64,000 nucleotides of DNA from Pseudomonas sp. J452 (GTDB lineage Bacteria > Pseudomonadota > Gammaproteobacteria > Pseudomonadales > Pseudomonadaceae). Shown one piece after another: positions 2,384-4,336 of this stretch (the stretch's first letter is position 1; each line of letters opens with the position of its first letter). Location of the stretch: the NCBI RefSeq assembly GCF_024666525.1, contig NZ_CP088294.1, forward strand, positions 2,542,001-2,606,000. Reading direction: 5' to 3'. The translations under genes and the position numbers were made by a program. Under the pieces are notes generated by a model, which did no database searches, was not told the DNA's origin, and worked only from the letters and a program-made list of their open reading frames with translations.

Positions 2384-3199
2384 TTATCGTACCGAACCTT
2401 TCTCGATCCAATCGTAGCGAATGGATACAGTCACTTCGAAGTCTTCGGCAATTACCGCGGCGCGGCGTTCGGCGCTGGCGCGCCAGCCGTGCGGGGTCAT
2501 CGCCAGCAGGTCGGCGCGGGCCTGGCTGCTGTCCAGCTGCAGGGCAAAGCGCAGGGTTTCGCTGTGAGCCAGGCGCATGCCTGGCGGAATCAGTTCGAGG
2601 TGCTTCTGCTCATCATAGTCGCGCACCTCGTCGTACAGCTTCTGCCGTAGCTGCATCAGGTGCTCGCCGGTCGGGCCCATGCGCAGCAGGCCGCCACCGG
2701 GAGCGAGCAGGCGCAGCGCTTCCTGCCAGTCCAGCGGGCTGAACACGCTGGCCAGCAGGGTGCAACTGGCGTCGGCCAGGGGCACGCGGGCCATGCTCGC
2801 CACCAGCCAACTTAGCTGCGGCGAGCGCTTGCAGGCACGCTTGACCGCCTCGCGGGAGATATCCAGGGCATAGCCGTCGGCATCCGGTAGCAGCTCGGCG
2901 AGTTGCGCGGTGTAGTAGCCCTCGCCGCAACCGATATCCAGCCAACGCTGCGGGTTGCGCTCGGCAGCCAGCTCGGCCAGGCGCTTGGCCAGTGGGGCGT
3001 AGTGACCGCCATCGAGAAAGCGCCGGCGGGCCTCGACCATGGCCACGTTGTCACCCGGATCACGGCTGTTCTTGTGCTGCACCGGCAGCAGGTTCAGGTA
3101 ACCCTGGCGCGCACGGTCGAAACGGTGGTTGGCCGGGCAGGCCACACCGTTGTCGACGACGCTCAGCGCCTGCTGGCAGATGGGGCAGGTCAGGCTCAT
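2384..3199 (-). CDS. rlmA: 23S rRNA (guanine-N1) methyltransferase, RlmA family
   Basis: A 271-residue S-adenosylmethionine-dependent methyltransferase predicted to modify N1 of G745 (E. coli numbering) in 23S rRNA. The N terminus carries the RlmA zinc site: CPICQQ (Cys 5 and Cys 8), then CPANH (Cys 21 and His 25). The SAM-binding motif follows as [13 protein letters not shown] near residue 90. The start at 3199 overlaps the dapE stop as ATGA, so the two genes are translationally coupled, and the N-terminal MSLTCPIC is the usual start of the family. A frameshift inside dapE makes the two genes read as one long open frame, but the zinc-binding N terminus and ATGA junction show that rlmA begins here. 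Confidence 0.9.
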
Positions 3200-4336
3200 G
3201 CCAGTAGGTTTACCAGGGTCTGATAGTAGATTTCGGTCAGCACATCCAGGTCGCTGGCCAGCACGCGCTCGTCGATCTGGTGGATGGTGGCGTTGACCGG
3301 GCCCAGCTCGACCACCTGGGTGCCCAGGGTGGCGATAAAGCGCCCGTTCTGAGGTGCCGCCGGAGGTCGACGGGGTGGTGTCGCGGCCGGTGACCGTCTT
3401 GATGCTGGCTGCCACGGCGTCGAGCAGGTCGCCCGGCTGGGTGAGGAACGGCAGACCGGACAGCGCCCAGTCCAGCTGGTAGTCCAGGTCGTGCTTGTCG
3501 AGGATGGCGCGCACCCGCTGCTGCAGGCCTTCGACGGTGGATTCGGTAGAGAAGCGGAAGTTGAACACCGCCTTCAGCTCGCCGGGGATCACGTTGGTCG
3601 CGCCGGTACCGGAGTTGAGGTTGGAGACCTGGAAGCTGGTCGGCGGGAAGTAGGTGTTGCCGTTGTCCCAGTGCTCGGCGGCCAGTTCGGCCAGGGCCGG
3701 GGCGGCCAAGTGGATGGGATTCTTGGCCAGGTGCGGGTAGGCCACATGGCCCTGCTTGCCGCGCACTGTGAGGGTGCAGCCGAGCGAGCCGCGGCGGCCG
3801 TTCTTGATCACGTCGCCGACCAGGGTGGTGCTCGACGGCTCGCCGACGATGCACCAGTCCAGGCGCTCGCCGCGTTCGCGCAGGCGCTCGACCACGGCCT
3901 TGGTGCCGTGGTGGGCCGGGCCTTCCTCGTCGCTGGTGATGAGGAAGGTGATCGCGCCCTTGTGGTTCGGATGGTCGGCGACGAAGCGTTCGACGGCGAT
4001 GATCATCGACGCCAGGCTGCCCTTCATGTCCGCCGCGCCACGCCCGCAGAGCATGCCCTGCTCGTCGATCAGCGCATCGAACGGCTGGTGCTGCCAGGAT
4101 TGCAGCGGGCCGGTCGGCACCACGTCGGTATGCCCGGCGAAGCACAGCACCGGACCGTCGCCACCGCGGTGGGCCCAGAAATTGTCCACTTCCTCGATGC
4201 GCATCGGCTCCAGCGCGAAGCCGGCGGCGGCCAGGCGGCGCATCATCAGTTCCTGGCAACCTTCGTCGAGCGGGGTCACGGAGGGGCGGCGGATCAGGTC
4301 GCAGGCAAGCTCGAGGGTGGGGGAGAGGGTGGTCAT
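3196..4336 (-). pseudogene. dapE: Succinyl-diaminopimelate desuccinylase, frameshifted near residue 329
   Basis: DapE removes succinate from N-succinyl-LL-2,6-diaminopimelate in the cytoplasm and supplies DAP for peptidoglycan and lysine. The M20 dizinc motifs are intact in the first part: [12 protein letters not shown] (metal His and catalytic Asp) and [13 protein letters not shown] (catalytic Glu). The frame breaks after STSGGTS: one extra A on the minus strand (T at 3347/3348 on the plus strand) changes the expected [10 protein letters not shown]. Removing it restores the whole C terminus through [11 protein letters not shown], which holds the last zinc-ligand His, to LVNLLA and a TGA at 3196-3198. 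The restored protein is 379 aa, normal for the family. The ATG at 4334-4336 gives the typical [11 protein letters not shown] start. DapE is normally essential, so a sequencing or assembly error is at least as likely as a true mutation. Confidence 0.85.

Follow-up and report, generated by a model that had tools for sequence, protein, structure and literature searches.

Organization of the dapE-rlmA locus

The window considered here is a stretch of 64,000 nucleotides from the genome of Pseudomonas sp. J452, which was deposited as one contig of 4,862,927 bases with an estimated completeness of 100%. The minus strand of the window bears dapE followed by rlmA (Table 1). The deposited dapE sequence remains in frame from its conserved start as far as the motif STSGGTS, and the frame changes in the codon that follows, where the sequence differs by a net change of one base from the 108 loci of relatives that can be read at this site. 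Beyond the break, 50 scrambled codons without a stop lead into the whole of rlmA in its own frame. The frame break is thus present in the deposited sequence. The initial annotation had described dapE as frameshifted into rlmA by a one-base break after STSGGTS at 3347/3348, which is borne out by the single stop-free frame on the minus strand and by the comparison with relatives. The displaced C terminus and the ATGA junction with rlmA that it described also are present, but its figure of 316 dapE codons ahead of the break is corrected to 329.

Table 1. Positions of the features discussed in the text. Coordinates are those of the window unless the own genome is specified.
Feature	Position	Strand	Details
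dapE head	3350..4336	-	329 codons, in frame, last residues STSGGTS
Frame-change interval in dapE	3346..3349	-	one base relative to 108 readable relative loci
dapE tail, out of frame, otherwise undamaged	3196..3345	-	protein end ...NLLA, stop
ATGA overlap, dapE stop and rlmA start	3196..3199	-	TGA at 3198-3196, ATG at 3199-3197
rlmA, intact, 271 codons	2384..3199	-	NF008300 match and codon comparison with G118
Fused open frame	2384..4375	-	663 residues; 650 residues from the conserved dapE start at 4336
dapD, intact, succinylase branch	11527..12561	-	TIGR03536, 615.9 bits (cut-off 518.45)
dapC, intact, succinylase branch	13874..15067	-	TIGR03538, 683 bits (cut-off 474.6)
Acetylornithine deacetylase paralogue, M20 family (L034)	own genome 2166406-2167533		NF005710, 596.4 bits
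Acetylornithine deacetylase paralogue, M20 family (L035)	own genome 1510402-1511502		NF003474, 588.6 bits
Other broken gene: quinone-oxidoreductase-like protein			PIG3 model, 82.5 bits, below cut-off
Other broken gene: nucleotide-sugar dehydratase-like protein			no cut-off reached
Other broken genes: 545-codon and 228-codon proteins			no family match at the threshold used

Residues 6-331 of the 650-residue frame match the DapE model NF009557 with a score of 485.5 bits (cut-off 284), and a second DapE model, TIGR01246, scores 463 bits (cut-off 361.8). A full-length DapE domain was not found in one frame: the match of the head stops at position 328 of the 377 in the NF009557 profile, and the displaced tail is recovered separately by the same model with 52.9 bits across profile positions 327-376. 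Set against DapE as represented by these two models and by solved chains such as 7t1q, 5vo3, and 4ppz, the first 329 residues match over the cut-off and the displaced tail corresponds to the end of the same NF009557 profile, but, unlike in DapE, head and tail sit in different frames. In an intact relative (P0003), almost the entire protein matches the solved DapE chains. The segment that is out of frame in the deposited sequence includes the last histidine of DapE, within IHQ, which we take to be the last metal ligand of the enzyme; a literature search for the metal ligand His349 returned a match that concerned another peptidase. Residues 380-634 of the 650-residue frame match the RlmA model NF008300 with 252.9 bits, below the cut-off of 303.

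Conservation of the dapE frame and of the displaced tail

An intact DapE frame traverses the break site in 108 of 109 loci from relatives, a set taken from two collections in which some genomes appear twice (104 distinct 3′ sequences among the 108); in the remaining locus (L066) the contig stops short of the site. The motif NATIHQ occurs in the DapE tails of all 108 readable relatives. Among 398 genomes from the genus, the 24 bases across the break were detected in the own genome and in no other. When 149 genus genomes, the own genome included, were scanned with the first 326 residues of DapE, a query that lies ahead of the tail, nearly all of this segment was in one open frame in 145. The four exceptions are a frame change in G080, a gene distributed over two contigs in G067, and weak matches in G035 and G133. 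In G080, a single-contig genome of 86% completeness, dapE is in two overlapping pieces (G080:C1:736394-737369), possibly a parallel case of frame error. The closest named locus, among the best 80 of 581 and in a scan that may lack records of the own genome or of one very close to it, is that of Pseudomonas sp. 8AS with 94% identity over the first 326 residues.

The closest relative found, designated G118, possesses a DapE orthologue that is 95% identical to the dapE head. Across 327 codons of the head, 259 are the same in the two genomes, 53 differ synonymously, and 15 non-synonymously; the corresponding values for rlmA are 216, 44, and 9. The tail was compared over 49 codons from position 3342, stop included, of which 44 are the same, five differ synonymously, and none non-synonymously, an agreement beyond chance. 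As the displaced tail has undergone no amino acid change, the break is either very recent or absent from the organism.

In 72 of the 108 relatives the shifted frame crosses the dapE tail without meeting a stop. The downstream gene is in the same phase relative to dapE in 95 of the 108, with one relative in another phase and 12 classed, by a rule of our own, as having no downstream frame; an ATGA or GTGA overlap is present in 34. In G118 the rlmA frame is open for 390 codons upstream of its start. The shared phase combined with the frequent lack of a stop means that whenever dapE is broken here into that phase, a DapE-RlmA frame often will result. On the evidence of the sequences the DapE-RlmA fusion is passive and needs no special cause, and the open shifted frame is ordinary.

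Two singleton entries of 651 residues (P0001 and P0002), found among the 120 top-ranked proteins listed from 8000 that were scored, show the same gene pair fused as here, with heads that closely resemble DapE of P. aeruginosa (P0042). By alignment, the frame changes ~13 residues earlier in P0001 and ~35 residues later in P0002 than at the present break. Both entries are possibly false fusions in the databases. A dapE-rlmA fusion is not described in the titles and abstract openings of the literature matches listed. An evolved gene fusion was rejected as an explanation: the frame is passively open in most of the relatives, and P0001 and P0002 break elsewhere.

Routes to diaminopimelate in the genome

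The genome appears to be committed to the succinylase branch of diaminopimelate synthesis because both dapD and dapC are intact and score over their cut-offs (Table 1). DapE is the next enzyme of this branch. One of the five matches to NF009557 in the own genome passes the cut-off, and this match is the dapE head itself; the two that follow are classed by curated cut-offs as acetylornithine deacetylases (Table 1). The Ddh model TIGR01921 gave no match in the own genome at an E-value of 0.001. With the DapL models the best scores in the own genome were 423.7 bits for TIGR03540 (cut-off 593.25) and 145.4 bits for TIGR03542 (cut-off 364.7). A DapL-like candidate at position 4068044 of the own genome attains 551.2 bits on the LL-DAP aminotransferase model NF006387, below the cut-off of 675, and is an alanine transaminase by equivalog cut-off (NF006033, 822.9 bits, cut-off 647). 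The initial annotation had left a sequence error, a second desuccinylase, and a dapL or ddh bypass as options, and had proposed genome searches for the latter two. These searches disclosed no second dapE-like gene, no ddh, and no dapL over cut-off, whereas a sequence error emerged as the best supported of the options, although unproven.

With a single DapE, no Ddh, DapL scores below cut-off, and dapD and dapC intact, a real loss of dapE should be lethal or conditional. Helicobacter pylori and Mycobacterium smegmatis are reported in a passage of one paper not to survive without DapE even when lysine is supplied (PMC10815964), and a statement in a second describes DapE as necessary for m-DAP synthesis in Caulobacter, which has no bearing on the present genome (PMC5578688). 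A table in a third includes PA1162 (dapE), but this entry is not taken as evidence of essentiality (PMC3579789).

Frame breaks elsewhere in the assembly and the origin of the dapE break

For a census of frame breaks, the own genome and G118 were each sampled as three stretches of 400 kb, partly syntenic between the two. Among 926 frames of G118, 620 matched the own stretches: 584 in full, 20 partially, and 16 as candidate frame switches. Classification by hand identified five own genes, dapE included, as broken in frame relative to G118, a count that derives from the 16 candidates and in which the breaks are assigned to the own genome by comparison with this one relative. Visual inspection led to the other 11 candidates being set aside as out-of-frame extensions upstream of starts, as antisense-like frames, or as divergent tails; two of these, tails that belong to frames of 339 and 253 codons, are ambiguous. 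In the reverse direction, hand classification revealed no clear break among 624 matched frames (573 full, 32 partial, 19 candidates): four of the 19 are the same own-genome breaks viewed from the other side, and the remainder, at least three of which are ambiguous, were judged to be start extensions, antisense-like frames, or short frames. By hand classification the own genome contains more breaks than the relative in these stretches (5 of 620 compared to no clear one of 624), as would be expected of an assembly with technical pseudogenes. Of five own and three reverse candidates in a smaller first pass, dapE alone was kept. One candidate dropped in that pass, a frame of 579 codons, has an own-genome counterpart without the middle portion, and the two genomes may truly differ here. 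An assembly that is noisy throughout was considered but not seen, in that the window genes matched with G118 display no other clear break.

The four other breaks are located outside the window, near positions 818775, 2842215, 2864717, and 3047625 of the own genome (L239, L190, L192, and L201), and each coincides with a homopolymer run of 5-7 identical bases; positions in or beside runs of at least five bases make up 0.66% of coding positions. The affected genes are listed in Table 1, and the 228-codon protein presumably is YhhN-like. These breaks are probable technical errors or slippage, and could be real slippage mutations. Extrapolation of the observed rate suggests some dozens of frame breaks genome-wide, of which a few would fall in indispensable genes by chance, and the initial annotation naturally picked out one that did. 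The context of the dapE break is different. The longest run within 25 bases is three, and the homopolymer that is characteristic of technical pseudogenes therefore is absent. With a systematic miscall of the local word in view, TCAGACGGG was counted four times in the stretches from the own genome and 12 times in those of G118, and the ten-base word at the break once in each. The codon TCA, as a rare codon too weak a sign to be weighed, accounts for 2.9% of serine codons and is used at the break site by 2 of the 108 relatives. The bases beside the break also differ from G118.

The dapE frame break is most readily understood as an isolated single-base error in the deposited consensus, to which a probability of approximately 0.8 is assigned. 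This reading is favored by a displaced tail without decay, by the private nature of the break within the genus and its absence from the relatives' intact loci, and by a genome with one DapE over cut-off, neither Ddh nor DapL over cut-off, and intact dapD and dapC. It is favored further by the presence of other frame breaks, at homopolymers, in the same assembly, and by the scattered break points of P0001 and P0002, as errors would give. Technical pseudogenes are frame breaks that originate in sequencing or assembly (PMC11017572; see also PMC8011154 and PMC12007338), and the first of these papers attributes many putative pseudogenes in public genomes to assembly errors, which also favors an error here. 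The dapE case shares with technical pseudogenes a single break in a conserved gene, undamaged pieces, and restriction to an assembly with other breaks, but it differs in the lack of a homopolymer, unlike the other four breaks, and this lack weighs against an error. Other points on that side are that the different bases beside the break are a possible sign of real local mutation, that the rate of breaks found is low, that the other four breaks could be real slippage, and that a real mutation of very recent date would also leave the tail undamaged. A sequence error nevertheless is preferred because it needs nothing unusual, whereas a real break needs life without the DapE tail, and nothing over cut-off was found that would allow it. 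If the break is an error, dapE in the living strain would read as in relatives and yield an ordinary succinyl-diaminopimelate desuccinylase, and the ATGA overlap would join the intact gene to rlmA. The DapE-RlmA frame of 650 codons would then be incidental, given that the shifted frame is already that of rlmA and often is stop-free in this region of the gene. Without the tail, DapE would be predicted to lose its activity, and without that activity the strain would not be expected to grow; for these reasons reads are expected to reveal an intact gene.

A real recent mutation, fixed or mixed in the stock, is an unlikely but appreciable alternative in which growth would continue through leaky frame correction, an intact subpopulation, or diaminopimelate in the medium. 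The site is not a homopolymer, the usual context of errors, and the undamaged tail would fit a mutation too young for decay, although it fits an error to the same degree. Set against these points are the lack of a bypass gene over cut-off, the intact dapC and dapD, the other breaks of probable technical origin in the assembly, and the indispensability of DapE reported for two species in the passage cited above (PMC10815964). A real loss in which an acetylornithine deacetylase paralogue or the alanine-transaminase-like protein takes over the missing step is very improbable: two ArgE-type paralogues (Table 1) and the DapL-like candidate at 4068044 are available for such a bypass, but each of the three scores over the cut-off for a different enzyme (acetylornithine deacetylase for the two paralogues, alanine transaminase for the candidate), and among the matches listed none exceeds that of DapE or DapL. 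Considered more broadly, it is improbable that the break is real and that the strain, with no dapE in frame, makes diaminopimelate by some other means, such as a promiscuous acetylornithine deacetylase or sufficient spontaneous frame correction at the site. If that were true, Pseudomonas would furnish a natural example in which in-frame DapE is dispensable, and a real break would challenge DapE as an indispensable antibacterial target.

The fused frame invites two further readings, each of which is barely credible. A programmed frameshift, by which ribosomes shift at the site to yield both DapE and a DapE-RlmA fusion, would accord with a shifted frame that runs stop-free into rlmA and with dapE and rlmA as close or overlapping neighbors in relatives. 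It was rejected because the shift site is not conserved: the break is in none of the 108 readable relative loci, its sequence is private to the own genome, P0001 and P0002 break elsewhere, and no run longer than three is present at the site. A functional DapE-RlmA fusion enzyme likewise could draw on the open frame and a complete RlmA, but the last 50 DapE residues, which include the invariant NATIHQ, are replaced by other sequence, and the match to the DapE profile ends short of its C-terminal part. If the deposited break is instead the sequence error favored above, it cautions that frame errors can affect indispensable genes even in a genome that comes as one contig and looks complete, and that automatic annotation could be misled by them into reporting a gene loss or a DapE-RlmA fusion where neither exists.

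Elsewhere in the window, positions 1169-1236 contain a perfect 24-base inverted repeat with arms 20 bases apart (TGTAGGAGCCAGCTTGCTGGCGAT), which we take to resemble the REP elements of Pseudomonas.
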